Positions 7,813-33,246 are shown, counted from the stretch's first letter. The stretch is 33,246 nt of DNA from Verrucomicrobiota bacterium (GCA_021209225.1 JAJOIW010000030.1:1-33246), one strand, 5' to 3'. The notes: generated by a model from the letters alone, not told the origin. Program-made: numbers and translations.

Positions 7813-7816
7813 AAGC

Positions 7817-9340: not shown

Positions 9341-10327
9341 AGTCTATGACTCCCATTTTTCAAAGGACTGTCCGTCATCGGGCATTCGGCCTGATTTTCA
9401 TGATATGTATTGCGGTTGTTGGGGTGGGGTGTTTTGAGCGATCCTTTTTAACCTGGGCGAACTGGAAGGACATCCTGGTGCGATGTGCTCCGACGGCCAT
9501 CGTTGCCTGCGGAGTCATGACCGTCATATTGACAGGGGAGATTGATATTTCCACTGGATCTCTGATGGCATTGTCAGCCTCCGTGATGGGAATCGTCATG
9601 TCGGGTGATCATCTGGGTTGGAGTCCATGGATAGGGGTTCCGATCACTATCCTGACCGGGGCATGTGTCGGCGCAGTCACTGGTCTGCTTGTGGACCTGG
9701 GGGAATGTTCCATCCATCATTGTCACTTTGGGTTGGCTGGCGAGTTTCAGAGGACTGACCACTTTGCTTATGCGTGGGGGGAACATCGGAAACCTGCCTG
9801 ATGGGCTGGTGGAGGCGGCCAAGCGAGGGTATTTGGGGATTCCATTGTCCATCTGGGTGGCAGTAGTCGTTATAAGTGCCACTGGGTTCATCCTCCATAA
9901 ACTGCCACTGGGCTGGAGAATCAAGGCGGTTGGCAGTTGTCGGCATTCCGCAGAGATGCTTGGACTGAATACGCGCAGGATACGATTTTTCACCTTTGTA
10001 TACACAGGCATACTGACAGCTGTTGCGACACTGATCGAAGTTCCGAGGTTGCCTCGGATAGAAGCGGGTATTGGGGTTGGGTTTGAATTGCTGGTCGTGA
10101 CCTGTGTGGTTGTTGGAGGGGTTTCCATATCTGGCGGGCGGGGAAATTTATGCGCGGTAATGTTCGCTGTGCTTCTGATGACGCTCATTCGTCCCATGCT
10201 CACTTTCTTGAATATTGGCGATGCGGCGGAGAAGTGGACGCGGGCGGTTCAGGGCTGCTTTATTCTGGTGGCTGTGGTTTGGGACGCCATCCATCACAAA
10301 TGGAATGCAAAGGAGAATTCCAGATGA
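9337..10327 (+). CDS. Sugar ABC transporter permease 1 (RbsC/RhaP-like), frameshift near 9698-9702
   Basis: MKSMTPIFQRTVRHRAFGLIFM...GVMTVILTGEIDISTGSLMALSASVMG (binding-protein-dependent permease signature), then an extra G in GGGGG; continues NVPSIIVTLGWLASFRGLTTLL...GVGFELLVVTCVVVGGVSISGGRG. ATG overlaps the ATPase stop. Confidence 0.9.
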
Positions 10328-11308
10328 AATGTCCGACATGGAAGGTTTCTCAGGAGGCTGCTTTGGTGGCATTACTGGGTATCGTCATGCTGACTGGGGT
10401 TTTATTAATTCCCGGGTTTGCTGAATGGAGGACGCAGATGTTTCTTTCCCGTCAGGTATGGGAGATCGCGTGGATTTCCATACCCATGACGTGCATCATC
10501 CTCACCGGGGGAATTGATCTCTCCGTTGGATCCATCATGGGATTGAGTGCAACCAGCTTCGGGTTGACTTTTCAGAAAACCCAGAACCTCACATTGGCCT
10601 GCCTGGCTTCTTTGCTCACCGGGCTCTTTTGTGGTGCAGTCAATGGATTATTCATCGCCCGGTGGAAACTTCATCCATTGATTGTGACCCTGGCGACATT
10701 TGCCACATTCCGCGGGATAGCCGAAGGTGTGAGTCAAGGCCGGTCCTTTTCAGGATTTCCGGATATATTTTTCTGGTTTGGTCGTGGAAATATTGCAGGC
10801 ATCCCACCGGCAGGCGTGGGATACATCATACTGACTGGAATTGCATTGCTGGTGCTTCATCGGTTTTATGTGGGTAAAAATTTATATGCGATTGGTTTGA
10901 ACAGAGTGGCATCAGGATTTTCCGGGGTCCCGGTCAGAATGACGGAATTTTTTTTTATATATGGGATCCGGACTGGTATCCGGGGCGGCAACAATCATCT
11001 ATATTTCCAGGTTCAATACTGCCAAGGCGGATGCAGGGATGGGGATTGAGCTGGATGTGATTACGGCGGTTGTTGTGGGTGGGACCTCCATATTCGGAGG
11101 AAGGGGAACGCTGATAGGAACGGTATTGGGGGTGATGCTCATTCATGAGACAAAAATGCTTGTGGGGAGATACTGGCAGGTGGAGGAACTGAAAACAATT
11201 CTGGTGGGATTCATGTTGATTGGGACAGTTTTATGCCATCGTTTTTTTGCCCTGCGCCCGGTTCGCTCCAGACAGGCGGCCGGCACATCCATCATCAGGA
11301 CACCATAA
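10324..11308 (+). CDS. Sugar ABC transporter permease 2 (RbsC/RhaQ-like), frameshift near 10949-10957
   Basis: MKCPTWKVSQEAALVALLGIVM...IPMTCIILTGGIDLSVGSIMGLSA...LIVTLATFATFRGIAEG; frame shifts at a T8 tract and continues MGSGLVSGAATIIYISRFNTAKADAGMGIELDVITAVVVGGTSIFGGRGTLIGTVLG. Confidence 0.9.
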
Positions 11309-11311
11309 TTT

Positions 11312-12546
11312 ATGAGACTCATCAGTTTATTCGGGATAGTTGTATTTATCTGCCTCGCATGGGGGCTCTCAGATAATCGTCGCAGATTCCCATGGCGGTG
11401 TGTTTTAAGCGGATTGGGACTTCAGATCGTTTTTGCATTGTTTATATTAAAATCCGCACCGGGACTGGCAATATTTGAAGGGGCACGCGAATTATCGGCA
11501 AAGGTTCTTGGATTTGCCAATGATGGAGCCGCGATGGTACTTGGGCCATTGGCCAATCCCGAATTGTTGGGGCAGGTATTTGGTGCTGAGAGGGGATTTA
11601 TTCTGGCGGTATCTATTTTTTCCACCATTGTATTTGTGTCAGCCATTTCATCATTGCTTTTTCATTGGGGCATATTGCAGCGCGTTGTCCAGGGACTGGC
11701 ATGGGTGATGAAGAGCACGATGCGCAGCAGTGGGAGTGAAAGCCTTGCGGCTGCAGCGAATATATTCATGGGTCAGACCGAGGCCCCTCTGGTGGTGAAA
11801 CCATATCTCAGCAAAATGACCCGGAGTGAGCTGATGTCACTTATGACGGGAGGCATGGCCACCATCGCTGGATCCGTTCTCGCCGTTTATGTTTCACTGG
11901 GAATGGATGCTGGCCACCTGATTACCGCATCTGTTTTAAGTGCACCTGGAGCACTGATGATGGCCAAGATATTCACTCCGGAAACGGACCTCAGTGAAAC
12001 GCCGCGGGGGCGCAGGTGGCAAGGGAACGAACCGCCATCAACAGTATCGATGCTTTATGCCTTGGGGCACGCGATGGGATCATGCTCACATTGAATGTGC
12101 TCGCCATGCTGGTGGCATTTGTAGCCACGATCGGATTATTCAACTTTATTCTTGCGGCACTGACATCGCTGTTTTGGAGTGATGGACTGACTGTCCAGAA
12201 TATTTTCGCATGGACCCAAGTTCCCTTTGCCTGGCTGATGGGGATTCCGGCTGAGGAATGTTCAGTCATTTCCAAAGCGCTGGGCGATCGGATTGTGTTT
12301 AATGAATTTCTGGGATATCAGGCACTGACCACCATGGAGGAGGGTCTATCAGATCGAGGCAGAACTCTTGCAGCGTATGCCTTGTGCGGCTTTGCAAATT
12401 TTGGCAGTATCGCCATACAAATCGGAGGCATAAGCCAATTGGCGCCGGATCGTCGGGTGGATCTTGCCAGATTGGGGTTGCGATCCATGGTGGCGGGGCT
12501 TCTGACCTGTTATTTGACCGCCGCCATTGTCGGAATCATTCTCTGA
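11312..12546 (+). CDS. nupC: Concentrative nucleoside transporter (NupC/CNT family), frameshift near 12005-12012
   Basis: RRFPWRCVLSGLGLQIVFALFILKSAPG...FANDGAAMVLGP...ISTIVFVSAISSLLFHWGILQRVVQGLAWVMKSTMRSSGSESLAAAANIFMGQTEAPLVVKPYLSKMTRSELMSLMTGGMATIAGSVLAVY, then in another frame DGIMLTLNVLAMLVAFVA...WLMGIPAEECSVISKALGDRIVFNEFLGY...LCGFANFGSIAIQIGGISQLAPDRR. All are classic CNT motifs. Confidence 0.93.
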
Positions 12547-16422: not shown

Positions 16423-18138
16423 GTGGCTAGCTCTGACGATTATCTATTAGAAAATTTGGTCGAGCTGGGATTTGTGACCCAACAACAGGTCGAAAATGCC
16501 CAACTCGATGCGGACTCCACCGGCGATGGTGTCGTCGACACACTCGTTAAAAGCGACGTGTTGCGCACACTCGACCTTGCACATGCCAAAGCGGCCTACT
16601 TCGGAAAGGAGTATGTCAACTTAGGTGAACTGAGACTGAGCGATGAAGTGATTGCTTCGGTGCCCAGACACCTGGCAAAAAAATACCGGGCAGTGCCAGT
16701 CTTTGCAACAGAAGGGGAAATTACGGTGGCCATTGCTGATCCGTCGGATCTTGAGGCTATTGATGGCCTGGAGCAGAGTCTGAACGCCGTCGTCAACGTC
16801 AATATCGCCACGGAGCAGGACATCGAAGAAAGCCTCAACCGGTATTACGAGTCCAACGACGAAGGGGTTGCCAAAATGATTCAGGACATCACTGAAGGCA
16901 ACGTTGGTGAGATGACCCTGTCTGACATTGGCAATCTGGCAGATGATGGCGGGGAACTGGATGCCGATACTCCGATCATACGCCTGGTCAGCCAGATTAT
17001 ACTGGACGCTTACAAGATTGGCGCCTCGGATATTCACCTGGAACCAATGGAACATGAGTTCCGCATCCGATACCGCATTGACGGGGTGTGCATGGCGCAG
17101 CCCAGCCCTCCGAGACGTCTTTTTCCCCCTATCATCAGCCGCCTTAAAATCATGGCGAAGATGAAGATCGACGAGAAACGGATTCCCCAGGATGGTCGTA
17201 TTCAGACGCCTGTGGCCGGTGGGAAAACCATCGATCTCCGTGTCAGCTGCCTTCCCACCTCCCACGGTGAAAGTATCGTCATGCGTATCCTCGACAAAGA
17301 GGGACTGAAGCTCGGCCTGGCTGAACTGGGATTTTTTGCGGATGACCAGTTGACTTTTGAGCGTTTGATCAGTCTGCCGGATGGCATTCTGCTTGTGACC
17401 GGTCCAACGGGATCAGGAAAAACCACCACACTTTACTCCTGCCTGAACTTCATCAACAAACCCGACAGAAAAATTATCACCGTTGAGGATCCGGTGGAAT
17501 ATCAGCTTGCTGGAATCAACCAGGTCCAAGTCAATAATGATATCAAGTTCACATTCTCTGCGGCGTTGAGAGCCATGTTGCGACAAGCCCCGAACATCAT
17601 TATGCTCGGGGAGATCCGGGATTTGGAAACCGCATCTATTGCTATGCAGGCATCCATCACGGGCCACCTGGTTTTCTCCACACTGCACACGAATGATGCT
17701 CCCAGTGCCGTGACCCGACTTGTCGACATGGGGATCAAGCCGTTCCTGGTGGCTTCCGCGGCTCGAGGCCTCATGGCGCAACGACTGGTGCGGAAAGTCT
17801 GCAAAAGTTGTGCAGAAAAATCTCTTCCACCCAAGGAGGATCTGGAAATGCTCGGTATCAATTTGGATGAAATCGAAAATGCCAACTTCACACACGGCAA
17901 AGGCTGCTCGGTCTGCAATAAAACCGGTTACAAAGGTCGATTCGGTCTTTTCGAGGTTTTTGTTCTCAATGACGACTCCAGGCGCCTGATTTTCCGGAAT
18001 GCAACCGCCAACGAATTGCGCGCCCACGCCAGAGCAATTGGAATGCGGACACTCCGGGAGGACGGCATCAGAAAGGCCATAGCAGGCGCAACGACCACAC
18101 GTGCCGTCATCCGCGCTACCGCCACCGACTCCCACTGA
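16423..18138 (+). CDS. pilB: Type IV pilus/type II secretion assembly ATPase, PilB/GspE family (copy 1)
   Basis: Intact 571 aa from GTG. MshE/GspE N-domain, DIHLEPMEHEFRIRYRIDGV, DEKRIPQDGRI, Walker A GPTGSGKTTTLYS, EDPVEYQ, LGEIRDLETASIAMQASITGHLVFSTLHTNDA, CxxC zinc motif CKSC...CSVC. Confidence 0.95.
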   Translation: MASSDDYLLENLVELGFVTQQQVENAQLDADSTGDGVVDTLVKSDVLRTLDLAHAKAAYFGKEYVNLGELRLSDEVIASVPRHLAKKYRAVPVFATEGEITVAIADPSDLEAIDGLEQSLNAVVNVNIATEQDIEESLNRYYESNDEGVAKMIQDITEGNVGEMTLSDIGNLADDGGELDADTPIIRLVSQIILDAYKIGASDIHLEPMEHEFRIRYRIDGVCMAQPSPPRRLFPPIISRLKIMAKMKIDEKRIPQDGRIQTPVAGGKTIDLRVSCLPTSHGESIVMRILDKEGLKLGLAELGFFADDQLTFERLISLPDGILLVTGPTGSGKTTTLYSCLNFINKPDRKIITVEDPVEYQLAGINQVQVNNDIKFTFSAALRAMLRQAPNIIMLGEIRDLETASIAMQASITGHLVFSTLHTNDAPSAVTRLVDMGIKPFLVASAARGLMAQRLVRKVCKSCAEKSLPPKEDLEMLGINLDEIENANFTHGKGCSVCNKTGYKGRFGLFEVFVLNDDSRRLIFRNATANELRAHARAIGMRTLREDGIRKAIAGATTTRAVIRATATDSH

Positions 18139-18205: not shown

Positions 18206-19306
18206 ATGGGTTACCAAATGTCCGATTTATTGCACCTGATGGTTACGCAAGGTGCTGCCGATCTCCACCTTCGGGTCAACATTCCACCTGTTATCCGAGT
18301 TCATGGCACGTTGGTCAAAGTGGATGGTCCTCAATTGACTGATGAAACCTGCGAAGACTTGGTTCGCAGCATAGCATCAGAGGACCACATCCGTCAGGTT
18401 CGCGAAAAAGGAGGCGCCGACTTCGGTTTCGCCTTCGGGACCATGGCACGATTCCGGGTGAGTGTTTTCAAGGAGCGTGGTCACTACGGTATGGTGTTGC
18501 GGCAGATACCATCAGAAATGTTGACCATGGAGAAAATTGGTCTTCCGCCGTCGGTCAAGGAGCTTTTATGGAAGCCAAGGGGCCTGGTTCTGGTCACCGG
18601 ACCAACCGGTTCCGGCAAATCGACAACCCTGGCATCCATGATCAATATCATCAACCAGGAACGGGATGACGCCCACATCATCACTATTGAGGACCCCATC
18701 GAATATTACCATGACCACAAGGAGGCGGTCATCACCCAGCGGGAGGTTCACGTGGATGTGCCGAGCTTTGCTGAAGCCTTGCGCCGGGCATTGCGTCAGG
18801 ATCCGGATGTCATTCTCGTGGGAGAGCTCCGGGATCTGGAAACCATTGAGGCGGCTATCACGGCTGCTGAAACCGGTCACCTCGTGTTCGGAACCCTCCA
18901 TACCACAGGCGCCGCCAAGACCATTGACCGGATAGTCAACGCATTTCCCACCAACCAGCAGGAACAGATCCGGATCCAGCTCTCCACGGTGACCCAGGCG
19001 ATCATCTCCCAGCTTCTGTTGAAACGCGTGGACAAGCCAGGCCGGGTTGCCATATTCGAGATCATGGTCAACACCCCGTCCATTGGGGCATTGATCCGCG
19101 ATAATAAAACTTTCCGTATCAACTCGGACATCCAAACCGGGGCAAAATATGGCATGATCACCCTGGATGGATTCCTGATTGAGAAATACAAGGAAGGCAA
19201 GATCTCCCAGGAGGATGTGATCACCAAGTCTCAGGACCCCACTTCAGTTATGGCAAAACTTCAGGAGCTTGAGGAAGAGCGTGCCCTCCAGGAGGCCGAA
19301 GGGTAA
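18206..19306 (+). CDS. pilT: Type IV pilus retraction ATPase PilT
   Basis: Intact 366 aa. [126 protein letters not shown]. Confidence 0.96.
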
Positions 19307-19374: not shown

Positions 19375-21078
19375 ATGGCCGACTTCAGCACCATACCAGT
19401 TCTTAATCTCTTATACGAAATGGGGCTAGCAGATGATCAGCAGCTCCAGGAGGTGGCTGACGAATCAGAACGCACCGGAAAAAATCCCATCCAGACCGCC
19501 GTTGACCTGGAAATCATGGATCGGGACTCCATCATGCAGACAGTGGCGGACTCACTGTCCACCGAATATATCAACCTCGATAAACAGGAGCCCTCAGAAG
19601 AAGCGATCAAAGCGGTCGACGCAAACACAGCGCAGATGTTTCAGGTGCTCCCACTCGAATTGTATGATGACACGCTGCGGGTGGCATTTGTCGATCCACT
19701 CGATCCGTCACGTCTCGATGAATTTGCTTTCACAATAGGCAAGGAAATTCAGGTGGTGGTCGCGGATCCCAAGAAAATTGCCAACTACATCGATAAGTAT
19801 TATGCCAAAAGCAAAGGGGCTGGCTATGGGGACATTCTCAAGGAGATGGGAGATGCTTATGCCCACAATGACGCCTTATTGGATGAGTCCTCCGCTGCGG
19901 TTATCAGTATGGAGGACGCCGATGCGACCGATGTCACCCGCCTGGTCAATGCCTACCTGATTCAGGCGGTCAAAGACCGTGCCAGTGACATTCACTTCGA
20001 GCCCTTTGAAGAGAACTTTCAGATCCGCTACCGCATTGACGGAGCCCTCGTGCAATTAAAAGCGCCGCCACACCAACTATCCAGCCAGATTGCCTCGCGC
20101 ATCAAAGTGATGGCTGACCTGAAGGTGGATGAAAAACGCAAACCTCAGGATGGACGTATCCCGTTGAATCTGGGGGATAAACAGGTGGAGTTGCGGGTTT
20201 CCACGCTGCCAACTCAGTTTGGGGAATCTATTGTGCTGCGGGTTCTGGATAGGACATCCCAAAAGCTCGATATGACTGTTCTGGGGATGCCGGATGACGT
20301 ATTCAAGGGAGTGGATCTCATTGTCAATCAACCTAACGGCATTTTCATCGTCACCGGGCCGACCGGATCGGGCAAAACCACCACTCTCTATTCCTGCCTG
20401 CAGCGGGTCAATGACCCGGGAAGCAAGCTCCTGACCGCCGAGGAACCAGTCGAATATGATTTGGACGGCATCATGCAGGTTCCGGTGAAGTCGGGCACAG
20501 GTATGACTTTTCTAGCGGCTCTCCGAGCCTTTCTTCGTCAGGACCCGGATATCATCATGGTTGGCGAAATGCGGGATCTGGAAACAGCCCAGATTTCCAT
20601 TCAAGCCTCCCTGACCGGACACTTGGTGATGACCACTGTTCACGCGAATGATTCCGCGGGAACGGTCACCCGTCTTGTCGACATGGGAGTCGAACCCTTT
20701 CTTGTGTCCTCCACGCTGAGAGGCGTTTTATCTCAGCGCCTGGTGAGAACTATCTGCAAGCGCTGCCGAACTACTTTTGAACCCACTAAAACCCAATTGG
20801 ATGCCCTCGGTTTGGCCCTTTCGGACATTGAAGGAAAGTCCTTCTATTTTGGGAATGGATGCAGTGGGTGCAACGACACCGGGTATCGGGGCCGGAAGGG
20901 CATCTACGAGCTACTGAAGATTTCTGAGAAAATTGCCAACCTGATCAATGAGCGGGCGCCCACACTGGTCATCCGCGACAAAGCTGTTGAGGAAGGAATG
21001 CGCGGGCTCAGACAGGATGGGATCAAAGCCATTCTCGAAGGGGAAACCACTATCGACGAAGTCCTCAAATACACCTGA
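19375..21078 (+). CDS. pilB: Type IV pilus/type II secretion assembly ATPase, PilB/GspE family (copy 2)
   Basis: Intact 567 aa. DIHFEPFEENFQIRYRIDGALV, GPTGSGKTTTLYSCL, LRQDPDIIMVGEMRDLETAQISIQASLTGHLVMTTVHAND, CKRC...CSGC. Confidence 0.95.
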   Translation: MADFSTIPVLNLLYEMGLADDQQLQEVADESERTGKNPIQTAVDLEIMDRDSIMQTVADSLSTEYINLDKQEPSEEAIKAVDANTAQMFQVLPLELYDDTLRVAFVDPLDPSRLDEFAFTIGKEIQVVVADPKKIANYIDKYYAKSKGAGYGDILKEMGDAYAHNDALLDESSAAVISMEDADATDVTRLVNAYLIQAVKDRASDIHFEPFEENFQIRYRIDGALVQLKAPPHQLSSQIASRIKVMADLKVDEKRKPQDGRIPLNLGDKQVELRVSTLPTQFGESIVLRVLDRTSQKLDMTVLGMPDDVFKGVDLIVNQPNGIFIVTGPTGSGKTTTLYSCLQRVNDPGSKLLTAEEPVEYDLDGIMQVPVKSGTGMTFLAALRAFLRQDPDIIMVGEMRDLETAQISIQASLTGHLVMTTVHANDSAGTVTRLVDMGVEPFLVSSTLRGVLSQRLVRTICKRCRTTFEPTKTQLDALGLALSDIEGKSFYFGNGCSGCNDTGYRGRKGIYELLKISEKIANLINERAPTLVIRDKAVEEGMRGLRQDGIKAILEGETTIDEVLKYT

Positions 21079-21142
21079 TGCTCAGCTTTACCATTGCTGC
21101 AAATCAAGAATTCTGCTAAATTACCTTCACTCAATACAAAAC

Positions 21143-22435
21143 ATGCCTAAATTCAGTTATGTAGCTCTAGATGCGGCCGGGAAGGAAAAAAAGGGCGAAT
21201 TGGAAGTCCCCTCCCAGAACGACGCAATTACTGCCCTTAAGAATATGGGCATGTATCCTACAAAAATTGCCCCCTTGGCTGTAAAAGCCGGGGTCGCCAG
21301 GTCGGCCAAAAAATCCCCGGCCCGCGGTGGGGGCAAGGCTGGAGCCAAGAAAGGTGGATTTTCTTTTCCTGGGGCAGGGGGGAAATTCACCACCAAGCCG
21401 TTATCTATTTTCACCCGCCAGCTGGCTACCCTGCAGGAAGCAGGCTTGCCGCTCCTGAGGGGGCTGAAGGTTCTAGAGAAACAGGCCGTCAAGCCAGCTC
21501 ATGGTAGAATTATTGGGCAACTGGCCAGTGCAGTCGAAGGCGGTGCCACATTTTCCGAGGCCTTGGCACTCCATAAAAAATCCTTCAACAAGCTCTACGT
21601 CAATATGGTGAAGGCCGGGGAGATTGGTGGTGTGCTGGAGCTCGTGCTCAAACGTTTGGCCGAGTTCATGGAGAAGGCTGAGAAAATCAAGGGGAAAGTC
21701 GTGGCTGCGATGTTCTACCCGGTGGCTGTGCTGGTGGTTGCGGTACTTATCCTCGCCATCCTCATGGTTTTTGTTATTCCCAAATTCAAGGAGATCTTCG
21801 ATGACATGCTTGAGGGAGCCGCCTTGCCGGCCTTCACGGAAATCGTTCTCAAAATCTCCGATGCCATCCGCTTTCGAATCCTCTACATCCTTGCTGGCGG
21901 GGTTGGAATCTGGATTGCTTTCATCATTTTCAGCAAAACCAAATTCGGTCGGTATGTGCTGGATTTGGTCAGCCTGAAAATTCCGGTGACAGGCCCGGTG
22001 CTGAGTAAGGTTGCCATATCGAGATTCACCCGAACCCTGGGCACGCTGGTATCGTCGGGCGTTCCCATCCTGCAATCCCTGAACATCGTGAAGGAGACAG
22101 CGGGAAATATGGTGATCTCCAATGCGGTCGCCGGAATTCATGAAGCAGTCAAAGAAGGGGAACCCATCACCCGCCCGCTCGAAGCGGCCAAAGGTGGTAT
22201 ATTCCCTCCTATGGTCATCAGTATGGTGGAGGTTGGTGAACAAACCGGAGCTCTTCCTGAGATGCTCCTGCGGATCGCGGATCAGTACGATGAGGAAGTC
22301 GACAATGCCGTGGCGGCCATGACCTCACTCATTGAACCGATTATGATCGTCTTCCTGGCTGTGATCGTGGGATCGATCGTTATTGCCATGTTCCTCCCGC
22401 TGATTGTCATGATCGAAAAACTGGGTGGAAACTGA
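21143..22435 (+). CDS. pilC: Type IV pilus/type II secretion inner-membrane platform protein PilC/GspF
   Basis: Intact. MPKFSYVALDAAGKEKKGELEVPSQNDAITALKNMG...LSIFTRQLATLQEAGLPLLRGLKVLEKQ...VAISRFTRTLGTLVSSGVPILQSLNIVKETAGN...FPPMVISMVEVGEQTGALPEMLLRIADQYDEEVDNAVAAMTSLIEPIMIVFLAVIVGSIVIAMFLPL. Confidence 0.96.
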   Translation: MPKFSYVALDAAGKEKKGELEVPSQNDAITALKNMGMYPTKIAPLAVKAGVARSAKKSPARGGGKAGAKKGGFSFPGAGGKFTTKPLSIFTRQLATLQEAGLPLLRGLKVLEKQAVKPAHGRIIGQLASAVEGGATFSEALALHKKSFNKLYVNMVKAGEIGGVLELVLKRLAEFMEKAEKIKGKVVAAMFYPVAVLVVAVLILAILMVFVIPKFKEIFDDMLEGAALPAFTEIVLKISDAIRFRILYILAGGVGIWIAFIIFSKTKFGRYVLDLVSLKIPVTGPVLSKVAISRFTRTLGTLVSSGVPILQSLNIVKETAGNMVISNAVAGIHEAVKEGEPITRPLEAAKGGIFPPMVISMVEVGEQTGALPEMLLRIADQYDEEVDNAVAAMTSLIEPIMIVFLAVIVGSIVIAMFLPLIVMIEKLGGN

Positions 22436-22674: not shown

Positions 22675-22965
22675 ATGGAGTTTGACTGGAACCAACTGCC
22701 TTTTGATCTGACGGAAAATGGGTTGTCGATGGTTGAGATTGAGGAATCCTTCGAAGATCCATTTTCAGTCAAGATACTGCCCGACAGTTCGGCGTTTGGC
22801 TCGAGATCCAGATATTTCAACATTGGTCGGAGTATGAATGGGAAGAATGTCATCTCTGTCTACTCGACCAACGGAAAGATCATTCGCATCATCTATTCAC
22901 GCGAGTGCGTGCATGAGGAAGCTTATTTTTACCTTAAACAAATGAACGAATCGCTCATGGCTTGA
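22675..22965 (+). CDS. brnT: BrnT-like toxin (type II toxin-antitoxin)
   Basis: MEFDWNQLPFDLTENGLSMVEIEESFEDPFSVKILPDSSAFGSRSRYFNIGRSMNGKNVISVYSTNGKIIRIIYSRECVHEEAYFY follows the BrnT layout (F.W.....N...G.S..E....F.DP......D......R...IG.S..G....V.......IRIISAR.....E...Y). The KHG motif is replaced by ENG. Confidence 0.72.
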   Translation: MEFDWNQLPFDLTENGLSMVEIEESFEDPFSVKILPDSSAFGSRSRYFNIGRSMNGKNVISVYSTNGKIIRIIYSRECVHEEAYFYLKQMNESLMA

Positions 22966-23021: not shown

Positions 23022-23375
23022 ATGGCTGAACCACAATTTCAATTTCAGGGCAGGGAAGCGGGCGACTCACGTCCTCCTGTGGCGCACATTCATCCCATCA
23101 AGCAATGGGAGGAGGTTCCATTCTTTCAGGATGAAATTGCTGAAGCCGCGTATTGGTCCATGAACCGGTTGTCCGTGGGCCTCATGGAATCATCTGCTAT
23201 GGGATCCAAATCGTCCCCGGGAGAATCGGTCACCATTTCTTTGCGCATCGATGCAAAAATGTTAGCCCGGATCAAACGCATGGCACGCACCCGGTTTCTC
23301 AATTACCAGAGTATGATGAAGCAATGGCTTGCCGAACGCATGGAACAGGAGCTTCCCAACAATCCGGGGGAGTAA
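23022..23375 (+). CDS. brnA: BrnA/CopG-type antitoxin
   Basis: EVPFFQDEIAEAAYWSMNRLS...SVTISLRIDAKMLARIKRMARTRFLNYQSMMKQWLAERMEQEL: 'F.sE.EEA.fW' linker plus ribbon-helix-helix (V.ISLRID..ML.RIK..A.....YQS....WL.ER) typical of BrnA/CopG antitoxins. Confidence 0.75.
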   Translation: MAEPQFQFQGREAGDSRPPVAHIHPIKQWEEVPFFQDEIAEAAYWSMNRLSVGLMESSAMGSKSSPGESVTISLRIDAKMLARIKRMARTRFLNYQSMMKQWLAERMEQELPNNPGE

Positions 23376-23419: not shown

Positions 23420-24187
23420 ATGATCCGGTCCGTTAAAAATTCCAGAATGAGATATACAGCTGAAAAACGCCACAGTGGCTTCACCCTGCTTGAAATGCTG
23501 GTTGTGATTGGGGTGATTTCCATCCTGGCGGCGATGACCGTTGGTGTCATCAGTATTGCAAAAACCTCCAGCACGGAAAAACGCATCGAAGGCCAATTGA
23601 ATAAACTCATCACTGCAATTGAACAATACAAAAGCAAGACCGGATTCTATCCACCGGACCACCAGACAAAAACTGTCAGCGGCCAGATCCGTTACACTCA
23701 ATACGGCAAACCCATCGTCAACCCAGTTCTGAATCCCCTCTATTATGAGCTCAATGGAGTGCTTGTGGATCTGAATACAAAATCCTATCTCGCGAATGGG
23801 GATCCCGCTGAGTACGCCCTGAATGATAATCAGGTTGTATCCTGGTTCGGCATGAGTGGATTCCAGAATTCCGCTAAAGATCCAGCCAGCTTGAAAAGTT
23901 CTTTCGATGGATTCAAGCAATCGGATTTGGTTCAGGTGGATGGAGCCATTGTCAATGCGGCACCGAAGCCGCAAGGCAGGGTCACGTTATTGTCCGTTCC
24001 TTCGCCATGGCCGAAGCAGTTTCAGGACCGCAATCCTCTCGGGAACACATCGTTGAATGTATGGTATTACAATTCATCGAACCCGACCAATAATCCTGCC
24101 ACTTTTGACCTTTGGGCTGAAATGCCTATCGTCAATGAAAGTGGACAATATGAGGTGAAGCGTATCGGAAATTGGAAAACGGAGTGA
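23420..24187 (+). CDS. Type II secretion GspG-like prepilin
   Basis: Prepilin motif HSG|FTLLEMLVVIGVISILAAMTVGVISIAK; GspG-like ITAIEQYKSKTGFYPPD. Confidence 0.85.
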   Translation: MIRSVKNSRMRYTAEKRHSGFTLLEMLVVIGVISILAAMTVGVISIAKTSSTEKRIEGQLNKLITAIEQYKSKTGFYPPDHQTKTVSGQIRYTQYGKPIVNPVLNPLYYELNGVLVDLNTKSYLANGDPAEYALNDNQVVSWFGMSGFQNSAKDPASLKSSFDGFKQSDLVQVDGAIVNAAPKPQGRVTLLSVPSPWPKQFQDRNPLGNTSLNVWYYNSSNPTNNPATFDLWAEMPIVNESGQYEVKRIGNWKTE

Positions 24188-24292
24188 TATCCAGCCGGAC
24201 GTCTCATGGTCTGCATCAGGAAAGAAATTTGTGCGGACAATCGATTGACCTGAAACCGACCTGACATCAACATCCATTACTTATATTTAAAA

Positions 24293-25093
24293 ATGAAATC
24301 TGGAAACATTAACAAAAACATGGGAAGCCGATCTCAGGGATTCACCTTGATTGAATTGCTTGTGGTCATTGCCATCATTGCCATTCTGGCCAGTATGTTG
24401 ATCCCTGCCTTGGGGAAAGCCAAAGACAAAGCGCGGGTTGCGCAGGCCACCAGTGAGATCAGCAGTATCAAAGGGGCGATTGAGCAGTATTTTTCCACCT
24501 ACAGTCGGACACCCGCCTCGAAAGAAGCCAGAGCCGCTGTCAATAACACCATCACCGATTTCACCTACGGCACATTTGACCGGGCCATCGGAGGCGTCCT
24601 GACACGTCCAAGACCCACGACCCCAATGCCCCAAGTCTATACCAACGTGGGATACAAAGAGAGCAATGCGGAATTAATTGCGATCCTGACAGCTGTCGAA
24701 CAATTCCCCAACGGCCGCCAGACACCGAACACGAACAACAATCTCAACCAGAGAAAGACCGTCTTTCTCAATGGAAAAAACGTTTCAGACAATACACGCC
24801 CAGGCATCGGACCTGATGGAGTCTATCGGGATCCCTGGGGAAATCCGTATATCATCTCCGTGGATCTCAATTTTGACGGGTTTGTTCAGGATGCATTTTA
24901 CAGCCTTCCTGGGATTTCCCGACAGTCGGGAAATATTGGTTTCAATGGACTGGCGGTCCAACCGTCCACACCCAATCTCGGATTTCTGCACAAGGGTCGG
25001 GTGATGGTGTGGTCCATGGGGCCGGATGGTTTGGTTGATGGCACAGTTCCAGCGAATGCTGGAGCCAACAAAGATAACGTCATCAGCTGGTAA
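24293..25093 (+). CDS. GspG-like prepilin/major pseudopilin candidate
   Basis: SQG|FTLIELLVVIAIIAILASMLIPALGKAKDKARVAQATSEISSIKGAIEQYFSTYSRTP; C-terminal RDPWGNPYIISVDLNFDGFV (GspG-type DPWGNPY). Confidence 0.87.
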   Translation: MKSGNINKNMGSRSQGFTLIELLVVIAIIAILASMLIPALGKAKDKARVAQATSEISSIKGAIEQYFSTYSRTPASKEARAAVNNTITDFTYGTFDRAIGGVLTRPRPTTPMPQVYTNVGYKESNAELIAILTAVEQFPNGRQTPNTNNNLNQRKTVFLNGKNVSDNTRPGIGPDGVYRDPWGNPYIISVDLNFDGFVQDAFYSLPGISRQSGNIGFNGLAVQPSTPNLGFLHKGRVMVWSMGPDGLVDGTVPANAGANKDNVISW

Positions 25094-25189
25094 TCCGTTT
25101 ATCCCAACGGTCATTATTCATCAAACAAGCTGGAATCTCCTCAAAGCAATTCAAGTCTTCAGTGGATTCATAAAAGTCAGGAAATCTTC

Positions 25190-26083
25190 ATGCACGAATC
25201 TGAACAATACCTGCCCCGGAATCAGAACCAGCCCATAGGCTGTTCGACGGGCGTGGAGGACATCCATCCCTGCCGATCCCTGAATGGCCAGAGTAAGCGG
25301 GCATTCACTCTTCTGGAGCTTCTGGTGGTCATCAGCATCATCGGGATACTGGCATCCATTGCTTTCCCTGCCTTTTCCGGTCTGGGACAGAGCAATGCCA
25401 TGGATGGGGCCGTCAGACAGGTGCTGGATGATCTTTCGTATGCACGTCGGTTAGCCTTGTCCACCCGATCCACCGTTTTATTTCTCATGGTGGCGGATGA
25501 TCCCAACAATGATATTCCCTCTCTGGCAGGTCTCAAATACCGCTCATACGCCATCTATTCCCGATCCAGTGTTGGGGATCAGCCGGGCAGACCGACCGAA
25601 AAATTCCTGACCGAGTGGCGCACACTGCCGGATGGAGTGACCTTTGAACCGACCAAGCTCGGCTACTTTTCCCTGAACAGCTCCACTCGCACCCGGACCG
25701 TTTTCAATTCCGGAATTGCCCCGACAAACCGCCCGCATCTCTACCTTGGGGAAACTCCCCAGAACATGCTTCCTCAAAACATTCCGTCGTTTCACAATCT
25801 GGCCATTCCGGTGGATACCGAGTGGAATAACACGAGAAGACAAGTGCCTGGCCGGTTTGCCTACATCGCTTTCCAGCCATCCGGGCAATTGGCTGTTCCG
25901 TTTGATGAATTTGTCCGCCTCAGAAAATCCAGTGTTGTCTATCCCAAAGACAATGCGGGCCGATTCCTTTCCACTGCCGTCACAGATTTAATTGTTGATC
26001 AGACCGATCCGGGCCGCTTCATTCAGATTAACTGGCTGACCGGCCGGTCGCGCGTTTTTGAAGTACCAAACAATGGCGGCTAA
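25190..26083 (+). CDS. GspH-like pseudopilin; candidate Verru_Chthon cassette protein D
   Basis: KRA|FTLLELLVVISIIGILASIAFPAFSGLGQSNAMDGAVRQVLDDLSYARRLALSTRSTVLFLMV; GspH/FimT-like 'L..D...AR..A'; first gene of a 4-gene set before the 1254-aa protein. Confidence 0.75.
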   Translation: MHESEQYLPRNQNQPIGCSTGVEDIHPCRSLNGQSKRAFTLLELLVVISIIGILASIAFPAFSGLGQSNAMDGAVRQVLDDLSYARRLALSTRSTVLFLMVADDPNNDIPSLAGLKYRSYAIYSRSSVGDQPGRPTEKFLTEWRTLPDGVTFEPTKLGYFSLNSSTRTRTVFNSGIAPTNRPHLYLGETPQNMLPQNIPSFHNLAIPVDTEWNNTRRQVPGRFAYIAFQPSGQLAVPFDEFVRLRKSSVVYPKDNAGRFLSTAVTDLIVDQTDPGRFIQINWLTGRSRVFEVPNNGG

Positions 26084-27005
26084 TCCTGCTCAAATCCACC
26101 CCATTTACCCCATGAACCCATATCCGCCAGTGTCAGAAATTCAAATGATGAGGAGCCACAATCATCGTCGGGGATTCACGATGATTGAAATAGCGATCAG
26201 TCTGGCGATTGTCGCAGTGGCCATGGTCGCCATTCTCGGCATTCTGCCAGCCGGCCTGAATGTGCAGAGAGAAAACCGGGAGGATACCATCATCGACCTG
26301 GAAGCTGACTATTACCTGCAATTGATCCGCAGCAGTGGCATGCAGTTTGGGCCACTCTTTGTCGCCGATCATGTCGATCAGATTTCAGTCACAAGAACCA
26401 ATCACTCCACCCGCGCTGCCAATACTGTGCTGTATAACCGCACCCGGACAACCGGTCTGGGATTTTCCTGGAACTCCCGGCAGGTGATCCGCAAGTTACT
26501 CTCCACCCCCAGTTGGGATCTGGGCACTGTGCCCTCAACGCCCGATGCAGTATTCACCCCCGCCCAAGGACTGAGGATCATCGAGGAAAATGAAGTGCGG
26601 GCCATCGTGCGCGCCATTCCTGGAAGGGCTTCAGATCTCTCCCCAGCGTATTCCGATTCTGCCTTGCGTTATGAAATGAAAGTGAGCATTCATCCGGCAG
26701 TCACACCAACTATTTTTTCAGGATATGGCCAGGACAATACCACATCCACGGCATTCAATAACCTCAATTCTGCCGGGCCTGCGGGGCAGGGGGAGTTATT
26801 ACGCCAGGCGGCCCTCAGCTCAAATCTGTGGGAGGTCGAATTGGAGATTCGCTGGCCGGTGAATAACTTTGATCCAGCTGCCGGCACATATTCTTTGGGA
26901 CGCAATTCACGCACTTACAGGACGTATGTCGCAGGCACTCTGGAACAGGACCCCCGCAGTCGAAATTTGTTCGTCTTTAACCGCGGCCAATACCAAACCC
27001 AATAA
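26073..27005 (+). CDS. GspI-like pseudopilin; candidate Verru_Chthon cassette protein B
   Basis: RRG|FTMIEIAISLAIVAVAMVAILGILPAGLNVQRENREDTI; ATG overlaps the upstream stop (alternative starts 26058, 26112). Confidence 0.75.
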   Translation: MAANPAQIHPIYPMNPYPPVSEIQMMRSHNHRRGFTMIEIAISLAIVAVAMVAILGILPAGLNVQRENREDTIIDLEADYYLQLIRSSGMQFGPLFVADHVDQISVTRTNHSTRAANTVLYNRTRTTGLGFSWNSRQVIRKLLSTPSWDLGTVPSTPDAVFTPAQGLRIIEENEVRAIVRAIPGRASDLSPAYSDSALRYEMKVSIHPAVTPTIFSGYGQDNTTSTAFNNLNSAGPAGQGELLRQAALSSNLWEVELEIRWPVNNFDPAAGTYSLGRNSRTYRTYVAGTLEQDPRSRNLFVFNRGQYQTQ

Positions 27006-27016
27006 TCAGGCCCACC

Positions 27017-27955
27017 ATGAATCCTTCCCATCTTCATCCCAGAACCAGAGTTAAGAATCCGCGAGCAGGTTTCACACTCCTGGAAATGCTCATGGCTGTG
27101 ACCATAACAACCATCATCACGGTGGCCCTTTATTCTATTTTTGATCAGACACAGAAAGCCTTCCGTGCTGGAATTGCCCAGGTCGACGTTCTGGAAGCTG
27201 CCCGCGCCACCGGAGAAATATTCGACCGAGATATTGCTGGATTGACAGTCAATCCTCTGGAAATCTCACTCGGTCGAGTCGCTCTGCCCACCAACCTCAA
27301 TTTTAATGATTATCCCTATAATGTGTGGATAGATGCGCGATCCACACAGAACTGGCTGGGCACAATTGCCGCCGGGACCACAGTTTTCCTGGCCCAGCAG
27401 AACGTCGTGTTTTTCACCCGCACCAATGATGTCGTCACCATGATTGGTTACTACAATTTTCCGATGCAGCTGAATTGGGCAGGCGGGTCCCGTCCGCCCA
27501 CCATTCCACAAATATCCACCCTGTACCGTTTCACCCGCACCTTTCAGGCATCGCAAATGACAGAGGCACTTGTGCGCGGGCACCTCGCCACATTCCGTGC
27601 CGGACCACTCGCTTCCATCAATGATCCAACCCGGCCATTCCAGGAGATCGTGCGTGGGGTCATCCACAATCGTTGGACTCCATTCGGATCCAATGGTCAG
27701 TGGTGGCAGAATGCGGCGGATCCATTGCTTGCCAAATTCAATCCTGGTTCGAATTCCTTGAGTGGATTGACCGGAGGCGGGGCCCTGGTTCCGGCTCAGA
27801 TGGAGTATGAGTTGATGATTTTACAAGACGATATCATGCAGCAGCTCATTGCCCTGGCGGAATCCAATACCGCCCAGGCCCGGAGCTTTCTCGAATCCAA
27901 ACTGCCGGAGATCCACGTCATCCGCAAAAGAGTTTCCACCGCCCTTTATCAATAA
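27017..27955 (+). CDS. GspJ-like pseudopilin; candidate Verru_Chthon cassette protein C
   Basis: RAG|FTLLEMLMAVTITTIITVALYSIFDQTQKAFRAGIAQVDVLEAARATGEIFDRDI, similar to GspJ/PulJ. Confidence 0.76.
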   Translation: MNPSHLHPRTRVKNPRAGFTLLEMLMAVTITTIITVALYSIFDQTQKAFRAGIAQVDVLEAARATGEIFDRDIAGLTVNPLEISLGRVALPTNLNFNDYPYNVWIDARSTQNWLGTIAAGTTVFLAQQNVVFFTRTNDVVTMIGYYNFPMQLNWAGGSRPPTIPQISTLYRFTRTFQASQMTEALVRGHLATFRAGPLASINDPTRPFQEIVRGVIHNRWTPFGSNGQWWQNAADPLLAKFNPGSNSLSGLTGGGALVPAQMEYELMILQDDIMQQLIALAESNTAQARSFLESKLPEIHVIRKRVSTALYQ

Positions 27956-30900
27956 TGATGAATCCTTTCCACAATAGACAGGGCGTTGCGCTCGTCACCA
28001 CTGTGATTATGCTCTCCATAGTCACGATTATGGCAATTGCCTTTCTTGGTGTGACACGCCGGGAACGCGCATCTGTCATTGCGTCGACTGACTTCACAAT
28101 CGCCAAGCAGATGGCTGTTATGGCTTCCGAGCGGGCTGCGGCCGAAGTTGTCTCGCGCATGGTTCGCGACAATGCCCTTGGTTCCATCGACTTGCTGGTT
28201 TCCACAAATTATTATAATCCGACCGGATTTCTGCCAGGTGTGGCTAATGCCGGGAACGTCAACTATTTCCAGCGCAACAATGGGGCAGATCTCAATAATG
28301 CCGACCTGATACAGAATATAGCCAACCTCCAGATAGACCCCAGACCGCCGGTCTTTTATCAATCCATTGTCAATCGGCGGCCAACCAATGAGTTCCGGTT
28401 TTTTCTCGACATCAATCGCAATCGTGCGTTTGAGGACACCGGCGTGATTCAACTCATACGCAATGGAAGACTCTCGAATGAATTTCAACTTTTAAGCGGA
28501 GATCCACAATGGATTGGCGTTCTGGAAAATCCGGATTTCCCGCACTCGGCCACAAACCGGTTTATAGGCAGGTATCTCTTCTATGCTCTGCCGACCGGAC
28601 GCAGTCTCGATATCAACTATATTCACAACCAGGTGAAGCAGGCGAATCTGGGTGGCCAGGCGACTGCCGAGGGCTACTATCGCAATCAAGGGGCAGGGGC
28701 CTGGGAGATCAACCTGGCTGCATTCCTGCATGAACTCAACACGAATTTCTGGGATTATAACTATAATACCAACCTGGTGGGCTCGAGTTTCGGTCGAGCG
28801 TTCACCGATTCTCTGGACCTGATGCTTTATCGATTGACGAACATCACCACGCGAACTGGAGGGTATTTGTCGTTGAGCGAACCCATCAACCATTTTGCCA
28901 GCACTGTCAATAAAGTGGGATTGATCGATGCGTTCCGGGACGATGGATCCGATAACTTTGGGGACGGACTGCTCACCACGGCCACTGGAGATGAGGATGA
29001 ACCTGTTGCCCGAAAGTGGTTTGGGTCAGATTCCCCACAAATTTATTACGATCCTCAGGAATTGTTCACAGCTGGCCGTCCCTATTCTCTCACTTCCGGG
29101 GACACGTCCCGCGGCGGGTTCGCCTGGCGCATGACCGCCTCTATGACCAATCTCCTGAACAACGATTCCGAAAACCGCTACACATTCTATAAAATGTTGA
29201 GCCAGCTGGGTGTGGATTCACTCCCAGCCAATCGAGACCGCATCCATCTCAATTACGACAATCGTTCGCAATTGAACCGATCGGTAACATTGCCTGTGGG
29301 AGACACACGCTTCAGAACCTCGGAGTTCCTCCCCTGGAACCCACAGATCCAGTTCCTCGAAGTGGCGGATCGCATGCTCAAAGAACGATTCCGCATTCTG
29401 GGACGATCGCCGAATGACATCTCCATTACCAACATCTCCATCTATCCGAATTTCAATTACGGCCCGGAAATTCATCAGGTTCTTCAGATGTGCGCCAATA
29501 TTGTGGATGCCAATTACCACGGCAATATCACAGAGAGCCGCCAGATTCGTCTCAGCGACAATTCCATTTTCACCTTTCCTATGGTATTCCGGCCTGTTTT
29601 TGGCAGACTTCCCGACAGTTCCATCGCCATTACCAACTGGCTGATGCTTGGGGAAAGAGGCCTGGATTTCATCACCAACCAGCCCTGGTATGATCTGTCC
29701 CGCCAACAGGATGTGTCACAACTGCAATCCAGCCTCAACCCCAACGGCAATATCTACGGCGTTCCATACGTCATCGCCGCCCGGCAGAACGTTCCTAATT
29801 TCAACGAGGTTCTTTTTGAGACCCATGCCACAGTCACACGCAAAGTCATTGCCTCCAAGCGGTCGCCCTTTGAGACCTTCGACCGACCCAAAGTTTTCCA
29901 GCAACTCCATTTTCTCAGCCTCTCAAATGTTGTCGGTCTGGAATCCTGGAATTCAGCCCGGACAGCATTCCCTCGGGAAGTGACTTTGGGTGCCACGAAC
30001 ATCTTTGGTGTCGGAATCTATAATCAGAATGGCTTGATCCGTTCACGTGAATTTCTCCGAAGCAATGTCGAATCCATTCCTGCCGATGGGTGGCCAGGAT
30101 CCAGTGATGCCACCTTCACCACGACGGCACAGAAGGATGCTTCATTCAGAATGCCTCTCCTGGGCTATTTTGTCAGTGCCACCAACGAGCTGTATATACG
30201 CAATTCATTGCTGAGCACGAACAATATCGTTTTTGAATCCGAGCTGACCCCATTGCAGGTGTCCCTGGCCACCACCAATCGTGTCACCTACTACATGGCG
30301 GACAGGGCCACAGGCCATATACTCGACTTTGTGAATTTGAGTCCCATGACCAACATTTACAATCTGTCCGGTGAGCTGCAGCAGCAATCCAATTTCTGGC
30401 TCACCAACTCCTTCAATTACGAACGCTCCACGGTTCCGGTCAATGAAGGCATCATGAACCAGATCAATGAGTCGCTCAGTGGAGCCGCCAACGATTGGCG
30501 CCCTCACAGCCAGGACCCGATCGCCGGGGACGACAAAGCAAAAGCCATTGAAGGTTTCCGCGATTTCATGGGAATCAACACGACAGGTATCCCGTCCATT
30601 CCGAGGACGACGACGACGATGCAGTTGCCATATAGTCCAACTTCAAAATTCCGTTGGCGGAGTCTGTTGCAGGCCAATGACCCACTTGTTCATTACACGT
30701 TATCTGATCTGATGGATGTCGATCAGCCTGGCGATCAGGCGCAGTTTATTCCGCTCACCCAGATGTTCAGCCAGAATATCACCAACAACAACCTGCTGGC
30801 TCTCAATGACCGCTTCAACCCATGGGGTGGAAACCCGTCCAAATCGCAGGCTCAGGCTTCGTCCAACGCCAGCAATGACCCAAGAAATCCAGCCCTCAAA

Positions 30901-31719
30901 GATCCCTCTGTCACGGAACCATCCCTTTTTCAGCTTCCTGCTTATAACCGGACTCTTGGATATAAATATCCCAACATCGGGGCTCTCGGTGCCATCCACC
31001 GGGGGACACCATGGCAAACCATCTACCTCAAAAGTGAAGGACCAGGAAATAATAAAATAACTCTCAGACAGTGGCGGAGCTGGACCGGACATCCCTTTCC
31101 GCAAATGACCCATCCCACCAACGATTGGAGCATACTGAGTCATTTCACCACCTCACTGAATGACAATTCCAGCCGGGGCCTGCTTTCAGTCAACCAGACC
31201 AATCGGGCAGCCTGGTCCGCCATATTGGGAGGTATCCGGCTTAAATCTGTGGCCGATGCAGAAATTGAGGACCGGGTCATTACCCCTGCAACCTCAGAAA
31301 TCTACAACCTGATTGATGGTATCAACCTGGCACGCCAATCCTTCCCTCCGCAGCGACAAGGTGGATTGAGCCTCTTCCCGTATCTGGGTGGGATTCTGGC
31401 AGCCCCAGAATTGACAATCAGTTCTCCCTACCTTGGATCTGGAATGATCACCGATGAGACCATGGAAGCGATACCCCGACAAATGCTGTCACTTGTCAAA
31501 GACGATGATCCACGGATAGTGGTTTATGCATATGGTCAGGCATTGCGGCCTGCGGATCGCTCAGTGGTCGGGACAGCGGATCAATTCAACGGCCTGGTCA
31601 CAAATTACGTGCCGACCAGTGAATACGTCACTAAAACACTCATAGAATTTTACACTGATTCCAACGGAGTCCTACGACATCGAACCGAATCATTCTCAGT
31701 TGTCAGCCCAACGGAGTAA
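27955..31719 (+). CDS. Large (1254 aa) GspK/PilX-like protein; candidate Verru_Chthon cassette protein A
   Basis: Single intact ORF starting in TAATG overlap with the upstream gene. N-terminus RQG|VALVTTVIMLSIVTIMAIAFLGVTRRERASVIASTDFTIAKQMAVMASERAAAEVVSRM: pilin-like hydrophobic helix lacking Glu5, as in GspK/PilX; the rest is a long Asn/Pro-rich exported-looking region. Confidence 0.78.
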   Translation: MMNPFHNRQGVALVTTVIMLSIVTIMAIAFLGVTRRERASVIASTDFTIAKQMAVMASERAAAEVVSRMVRDNALGSIDLLVSTNYYNPTGFLPGVANAGNVNYFQRNNGADLNNADLIQNIANLQIDPRPPVFYQSIVNRRPTNEFRFFLDINRNRAFEDTGVIQLIRNGRLSNEFQLLSGDPQWIGVLENPDFPHSATNRFIGRYLFYALPTGRSLDINYIHNQVKQANLGGQATAEGYYRNQGAGAWEINLAAFLHELNTNFWDYNYNTNLVGSSFGRAFTDSLDLMLYRLTNITTRTGGYLSLSEPINHFASTVNKVGLIDAFRDDGSDNFGDGLLTTATGDEDEPVARKWFGSDSPQIYYDPQELFTAGRPYSLTSGDTSRGGFAWRMTASMTNLLNNDSENRYTFYKMLSQLGVDSLPANRDRIHLNYDNRSQLNRSVTLPVGDTRFRTSEFLPWNPQIQFLEVADRMLKERFRILGRSPNDISITNISIYPNFNYGPEIHQVLQMCANIVDANYHGNITESRQIRLSDNSIFTFPMVFRPVFGRLPDSSIAITNWLMLGERGLDFITNQPWYDLSRQQDVSQLQSSLNPNGNIYGVPYVIAARQNVPNFNEVLFETHATVTRKVIASKRSPFETFDRPKVFQQLHFLSLSNVVGLESWNSARTAFPREVTLGATNIFGVGIYNQNGLIRSREFLRSNVESIPADGWPGSSDATFTTTAQKDASFRMPLLGYFVSATNELYIRNSLLSTNNIVFESELTPLQVSLATTNRVTYYMADRATGHILDFVNLSPMTNIYNLSGELQQQSNFWLTNSFNYERSTVPVNEGIMNQINESLSGAANDWRPHSQDPIAGDDKAKAIEGFRDFMGINTTGIPSIPRTTTTMQLPYSPTSKFRWRSLLQANDPLVHYTLSDLMDVDQPGDQAQFIPLTQMFSQNITNNNLLALNDRFNPWGGNPSKSQAQASSNASNDPRNPALKDPSVTEPSLFQLPAYNRTLGYKYPNIGALGAIHRGTPWQTIYLKSEGPGNNKITLRQWRSWTGHPFPQMTHPTNDWSILSHFTTSLNDNSSRGLLSVNQTNRAAWSAILGGIRLKSVADAEIEDRVITPATSEIYNLIDGINLARQSFPPQRQGGLSLFPYLGGILAAPELTISSPYLGSGMITDETMEAIPRQMLSLVKDDDPRIVVYAYGQALRPADRSVVGTADQFNGLVTNYVPTSEYVTKTLIEFYTDSNGVLRHRTESFSVVSPTE

Positions 31720-31960: not shown

Positions 31961-33246
31961 ATGCGACTTTCACGTCACATATTCGCAGTAGCCAGTTTGG
32001 TCTTTGTGCTAGCCGTTCTGATAACCTGGCAGGTCATCGATAGGAGGAACGACAGGCATCGTTCTGTACCAGCCATCTCTCTCAACAGCAGTCAGAATGA
32101 TGCTCAAGGCCAGGATCACACACCCGACAGATCATCCGCATTTGACCTGACTTCAACCGATGCAGAGCTGAGCTCCCGGGATGAGCAGCCAGAGAATGGG
32201 GGCTTTCAGGAAAGTGCATCTCCTGCTCGTGATTCAGCTCAATCCCCGGCGGATTCCCGGCATCCCTACCGGTTGCTCAATTCTGGAAAACCGCTCAGTC
32301 AACTCATTCGCTCGGAACAGGCCATCCTTCTGGAGAATGCTTCACTGGATACGTCCGAGCCATTGGATCTGGATATTCCTGATCACTTGAGATCACAAGG
32401 TCCGGTGGGAGCATATGTTGTGCAGTTTGACCATCGGCTCACCCAGGCGGACTATGTGCGGATGGAGGTCAATGGAGGACGTGTCGTCTCCTACATTCCC
32501 AACAACGCACTGCTTGTTGAAGGGCAGGCACAGAATATTGAATCACTCGGTCATCAGGCAGGTATTCAAACCATAATTCCCTGGGAACCCTACTTTAAAT
32601 TCAAAGAAACTCTTTTGGAGAAAGCGGTGAAAAATCTGCCATTGGAGCAGGATCAATGGATCAGCGTGGTGGGATTCCCCGGAACAAGTGACACTCTGAG
32701 AGCAGAGATCGAATCCTTGGGGGGGCGGATCATGGTGGAGGAAACAACCCCTTTCGGACCAGCGGTTGTCATTCAACCTGACTTCCAGGATTGGGTGAAA
32801 ATCGCCCATAGTTCACAGGTGATGATCATTGAGACATTCCACCCCAGAAAACTGGCGAATGACCTGGCCCGCACCCGCCTGGGGATTGCCCCGGATTCCT
32901 TGTCATCCACCAATTACCTTGAACTCAGTGGCAAGGGGATAGTGGTGAACGTCAATGATACAGGCGTGGATGCGACCCATCCCGATTTACAGGGACGCGT
33001 TCAACCTGGGGACCCATCGGACCCATCGTCCATCAGGGACTTCGATGGCCATGGAACCCATGTGGCGGGAAGTATTGCCAGTTCTGGTCTCAGCTCACCT
33101 GGTCCGGATGAGGATGGGGAACCCGCAGCTTATGGGTCCGATCCGGAGGCTGATTTCCGGGGCATGGCACCAGAAGCCTCCATATACCCACTGCCAATCT
33201 TTCTCAATGTGGGACCGGTTCAATCGGACACCTATCTGATTGAGAA
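31961..33246 (+). CDS. Secreted S8 (subtilisin-like) serine protease, C-terminus beyond window
   Basis: MRLSRHIFAVASLVFVLAVLITWQVIDRR signal/TM; propeptide-like region; GKGIVVNVNDTGVDATHPDLQGRV (Asp motif) and DFDGHGTHVAGSIAS (His motif). Frame open to the window end. Confidence 0.9.
   Translation, partial: MRLSRHIFAVASLVFVLAVLITWQVIDRRNDRHRSVPAISLNSSQNDAQGQDHTPDRSSAFDLTSTDAELSSRDEQPENGGFQESASPARDSAQSPADSRHPYRLLNSGKPLSQLIRSEQAILLENASLDTSEPLDLDIPDHLRSQGPVGAYVVQFDHRLTQADYVRMEVNGGRVVSYIPNNALLVEGQAQNIESLGHQAGIQTIIPWEPYFKFKETLLEKAVKNLPLEQDQWISVVGFPGTSDTLRAEIESLGGRIMVEETTPFGPAVVIQPDFQDWVKIAHSSQVMIIETFHPRKLANDLARTRLGIAPDSLSSTNYLELSGKGIVVNVNDTGVDATHPDLQGRVQPGDPSDPSSIRDFDGHGTHVAGSIASSGLSSPGPDEDGEPAAYGSDPEADFRGMAPEASIYPLPIFLNVGPVQSDTYLIE

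Follow-up and report, generated by a model that had tools for sequence, protein, structure and literature searches.

The minor pilins of type IV pili and the GspG-H-I-J-K proteins of type II secretion systems (T2SS) are the closest described counterparts of the genes analysed here. In Myxococcus, the minor pilins FimU, PilV, PilW and PilX form a priming and tip complex together with PilY1, and the Glu5 residue is missing in PilX as well as in GspK (PMC7541494). Searching the literature on Verrucomicrobiota minor pilins and Pedosphaera pili, we found nothing to the point. A third group for comparison is represented by the Verru_Chthon cassettes (TIGR02600, TIGR02598, TIGR02599 and TIGR02596); a literature search did not find the cassette by name in any paper.

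The DNA analysed (the window) is a stretch of 33,246 nucleotides from a genome which we judged to belong to the order Limisphaerales and whose assembly is fragmentary (57.7% complete, 248 contigs).

Organisation and conservation of the prepilin operon

The first-pass annotation had described six consecutive ORFs on the same strand, five of them with a prepilin motif and the sixth without Glu5, and both the coordinates and the profile matches agree with this description. The ORFs extend over positions 23420–31719 of the plus strand and code for two GspG-type (major-class) prepilins, G1 (23420–24187, 255 aa, with a Glu5 motif) and G2 (24293–25093, 266 aa), followed by four putative minor prepilins: the GspH/FimU-like D (25190–26083, 297 aa), B in the position of GspI/PilV (26058–27005, 315 aa), the GspJ/PilW-like C (27017–27955, 312 aa) and the giant GspK/PilX-like A (27955–31719, 1254 aa). 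The start of B is likelier a later ATG near 26145, and the stop codon of C overlaps the start codon of A by one base. The first five proteins all match the N_methyl model PF07963 and TIGR02532 above the cut-offs. G2 scores 23.9 bits with PF08334, which is above the cut-off, and 58.5 bits with TIGR01710, which is below that of the model. The N-terminus of A, RQGVALVTTVIMLS, is a pilin-like hydrophobic helix without Glu at mature position 5, and this position is occupied by I, V, T or L, never by Glu, in all 67 readable orthologues. Because prepilin motifs are frequent in this genome (49 matches), the motif alone is unremarkable, and it is the ordered, recurring block that is remarkable.

The block is preceded on the same strand by genes for a PilB/GspE-type extension ATPase (E1; 16423–18138, PF00437 with 444.8 bits plus an MshEN domain), which is syntenic in most related loci, the retraction ATPase PilT (18206–19306, TIGR01420 with 449.1 bits at a cut-off of 319.1, about 76–82% identical to its relatives), a second PilB/GspE-type ATPase (E2; 19375–21078, PF00437 with 432.6 bits) and a PilC/GspF platform protein with two PF00482 domains (20948–22435). 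The ORF of the latter overlaps E2 at its start, and the true start is probably located later. Two small genes on the plus strand lie between pilC and G1 and occupy the same place in most loci, one coding for a BrnT-like protein (22675–22965, PF04365 with 26.3 bits, below the cut-off of 34.5), the other for a CopG/BrnA-type ribbon-helix-helix protein (23022–23375, PF12441 with 35.9 bits at a cut-off of 28). Downstream of A, also on the plus strand, follows a gene for an S8 (subtilase) protease (31961–33244, PF00082 with 53.8 bits) which is cut by the contig end. It is found 3' of A in nearly all related loci with contigs reaching that far, and the protease may be a substrate of the system, a processing enzyme or a mere neighbour of the pilin genes.

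Of 58 relatives, 55 have a homologue of A, including all 39 of those at least 90% complete. In 20 loci representing 20 families, the order BrnT-CopG-G1-G2-D-B-C-A-S8 barely varies; 13 of these loci include the PilB-PilT-PilB-PilC genes, and at least four show no ATPase or PilC gene in the several kb fetched upstream, so the linkage of pilin and motor genes is common, not universal. The order G-G-D-B-C-A is likewise nearly invariant in 80 named Limisphaerales loci, with losses mainly at contig ends, and PilC falls inside the stretch in 40 of them. About 12 loci of other classes also contain D-B-C followed by A, which measures about 730–1040 aa there; GspG-like genes are often found alongside, and PilC adjoins two of these D-B-C blocks.

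Profile relationships of the six proteins

Profiles were built from the orthologues of the window block, from T2SS sets of Limisphaerales and from 14 loci in seven genomes scoring above the TIGR02600 cut-off, and were compared after removing the N-terminal helix common to all pilins, using reversed templates as controls (scores of 9–25 against the window families). Among five Gsp profiles, the best helix-free match was GspG for G1 (E 1.4e-7) and G2 (E 7.6e-6), GspH for D (E 0.0019), GspJ for C (E 9e-5) and GspK for A. The matches of D, C and a compact form of A exceeded the reversed-profile controls. The gene content, the gene order and the assignment of G1 and G2 to GspG, of D to GspH and of C to GspJ are well supported. 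With the helix included, the profiles of the true cassettes paired best in the same manner, VC_D with GspH, VC_C with GspJ, VC_B with GspI (E 1.3e-8) and VC_A with GspK. A sequence search of PDB chains with the D, C, A and B profiles returned only pilin helices or chance matches.

The direct helix-free matches of A to GspK (E 0.029, best of the Gsp profiles; score 28 vs. a reversed maximum of 25) and to VC_A (E 0.019, best overall) are close to the control level. Because they are too weak alone, we used the compact A family of the other classes (about 730–1040 aa) as a bridge. It aligns with the whole length of window A (E 4.8e-13) and matches GspK with E 4.5e-4 (score 40.7 vs. a reversed maximum of 18.8), and a merged A profile matches GspK with E 6.5e-4 (score 41 vs. 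15 reversed). This supports A as a probable GspK equivalent. No Pfam model, T2SSK (PF03934) included, matched A up to E 0.1, and genuine GspK proteins are encoded on other contigs of the same genome, which contains two further GspF-G-H-I-J-K sets on contig 181 (GspK frame of 464 aa) and contig 115 (423 aa). A occupies the position of the ordinary GspK in both of these sets. The set on contig 115 (L110, 6683–13276) differs from the T2SS of contig 181 and counts as a third set of the GspF-G-H-I-J-K-like kind; its ATPase frame is split.

The AlphaFold2 model of A (residues 41–1234) is poor (pLDDT 61.6); its best-predicted part is a beta-sandwich domain at about residues 530–803 (29542–30363, plus strand). 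Foldseek searches of the model against the PDB, the beta-sandwich included, gave non-significant matches only. A GspK-like C-terminal module at about residues 995–1245 (30937–31689, plus strand) was aligned, in the comparison with the merged A profile, to GspK columns 239–406, which represent the C-terminal module of GspK.

The weakest assignment is that of B, which did not match any profile without the helix. With the helix, it matched VC_B with E 1.7e-11 (next best 2.3e-6), in the first 72 columns only, and the matching segment contains a common LP-x-G motif just past the helix. The AlphaFold2 model of B reached a pLDDT of 84.9, yet did not match any fold in the PDB and therefore provides no fold support for GspI; from its N-terminus and position, B may correspond to PilV/GspI. 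The earlier proposal of an H-I-J-K-like order for the last four genes is borne out by the profile matches of D, C and A, and their reading as GspH/I/J/K equivalents stands for D and C helix-free and for A via the compact form. For B, it extends to the N-terminal segment and the position.

Relationship to Verru_Chthon cassettes

The last four genes had also been taken for a Verru_Chthon D-B-C-A cassette linked by this locus to its ATPase and platform genes. The third to sixth proteins are indeed hit by the Verru_Chthon models D, B, C and A in this order, with all scores below the curated NCBIfam cut-offs (39.9 vs. 70 bits for D, 24.2 vs. 51.4 for B, 24.8 vs. 256.5 for C and 11 vs. 332.3 for A), and a TIGR02600 search of the own genome gave no match. 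Past the helix, homology to the cassette families is present in D (E 4.9e-12) and C (E 4.6e-8), along their globular parts; A is colinear with a directly weak match (E 0.019, close to controls), and B shares the N-terminal motif without any match beyond it. The true loci mostly show the order A-B-C-D, with B-C-A-D in L092 and B-C-A in L093 and L094, as opposed to D-B-C-A in the window. While the window set lies beside pilus motor genes, no PilB, PilT or PilC homologue was found in the 20 kb fetched around 14 true cassettes, so the suggested link of true cassettes to such genes finds no support in these stretches. The homology of D and C and the weaker one of A remain from the cassette proposal, and judged by these scores and by gene order, the label denotes a relationship and not membership. 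In the simplest history, H-I-J-K would be the ancestral order, and the cassettes would be offshoots with a rearranged one.

Some true cassettes adjoin genes for giant proteins with PATR repeats or Ig/PKD domains (L089:6886–14307, L095:4175–12628, L100:6324–9947). L223, L224, L227, L228, L229 and L233 each code for a large single protein whose N-terminal helix resembles that of Verru_Chthon A (in L229 rather that of GspK), and no D-B-C neighbours were found in the stretches fetched.

A probable type IV pilus with a candidate giant tip subunit

The locus combines PilB, PilC and PilT with prepilins, a set of genes used to recognise a type IVa pilus, and we read it as a type IV pilus locus rather than a T2SS. 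It has the gene order of the T2SS GspG-H-I-J-K genes, to whose profiles those of G1, G2, D, C and A are related. It differs from them by the presence of PilT, scoring above the cut-off, and by A, which is about three times as long as the GspK of the same genome (423–464 aa) and lacks a Pfam T2SSK match. We set aside the T2SS pseudopilus reading of the first-pass annotation because PilT is part of the operon and separate T2SS-like sets are located elsewhere in the same genome. PilM was matched in all 38 relatives searched, with a secretin near PilM in two loci away from the pilin block, and the order in the relatives is PilM, two unnamed genes and the secretin; PilN, PilO and PilP were not identified by Pfam. 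When 57 Limisphaerales genomes were searched with the PilY1 Pfam model, without a positive control, no match exceeded the cut-off.

Compared with the type IV pilus minor pilins described (PMC7541494), the window likewise contains four minor pilin genes, a PilX-like protein without Glu5, and PilB, PilC and PilT. The differences are the K/X-type protein of 1254 aa, the lack of a PilY1 Pfam match above cut-off in the order, and a single operon that combines the pilin genes with those for two PilB-type ATPases and for the BrnT/CopG-like pair.

Given the genes present, their conserved order and the matches obtained with the profiles of G1, G2, D, C and A, we consider it probable that the six genes code for the filament of this type IV pilus, with G1 and G2 for the shaft, D-B-C-A for a priming and tip complex and A as an adhesive cap. 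The GspG-class proteins G1 and G2 would form the fibre shaft, and D, B, C and A would take the places of FimU/GspH, PilV/GspI, PilW/GspJ and PilX/GspK. By analogy with the Myxococcus FimU-PilV-PilW-PilX-PilY1 complex (PMC7541494), they would form a physical complex which primes assembly and stays at the tip. Lacking Glu5 like PilX and GspK, A would cap the filament and expose its several hundred extra residues, among them the beta-sandwich, at the tip, where they would bind a surface or a substrate, the task of a separate PilY1-type protein in other systems. PilB, PilC and PilT would extend and retract the fibre. By this analogy, the extra mass of A is a likely replacement for PilY1. We propose more tentatively, and with less than even confidence, that in Verrucomicrobiota one giant GspK/PilX-type pilin with a beta-sandwich replaces both PilX and PilY1, and that the Verru_Chthon cassettes originated as copies of the tip module that became detached from the pilus operon and were recruited for use with other surface proteins.

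A different explanation would be a dedicated secretion pseudopilus exporting one substrate, e.g., the S8 protease, with A as an oversized, substrate-recognising GspK. The H-I-J-K order, the protease gene kept directly after A and the giant PATR-repeat proteins next to some true cassettes would fit this explanation, which we regard as unlikely because the operon has a conserved gene for the retraction ATPase PilT and the genome already has separate GspF-G-H-I-J-K sets with an ordinary GspK.

If D, B, C and A were instead a Verru_Chthon cassette proper, i.e., an independent system merely beside the pilus genes, this would agree with D and C being homologous to the cassette families along their globular parts, and A less clearly so. 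As all four proteins score below the curated cut-offs, occur in the order D-B-C-A rather than A-B-C-D and are positionally equivalent to the H-I-J-K sets of the same genome, we consider this explanation very improbable. Even less credible is a mapping to H/I/J/K that merely reflects the shared pilin helix, with unrelated globular parts and a coincidental order. It fits B, which has neither a helix-free nor a fold match, and is opposed by the helix-free matches of G1, G2, D, C and, via the compact form, A, each of them best with the expected partner; for D and C it is already disfavoured.

With the type IV pilus filament as the preferred reading, four named families of no described function would gain a testable identity as H-I-J-K-type minor pilins, and the operon would exemplify a form of pilus tip that is distributed across the phylum and has a capping subunit about two to three times as large as the GspK of the same genome. 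If A carries the tip activity, this would illustrate how a pilus lacking PilY1 is equipped with an adhesive tip.

Additional observations

The BrnT-like and CopG/BrnA-like genes between PilC and the first pilin are about 45–60% identical among most Limisphaerales loci and more conserved than the pilins; they may be a toxin-antitoxin pair that has become a regulator of the operon. The literature on BrnT in pilus operons yielded nothing to the point. On contig 68 of the own genome (3601–5489), PilM is split into two overlapping frames by either an assembly error or a real frameshift. Upstream of the pilus genes, the window contains a probable sugar-uptake block (6556–12094) consisting of genes for RhaA, an ABC transporter ATPase, two permeases and a nucleoside transporter-like protein.
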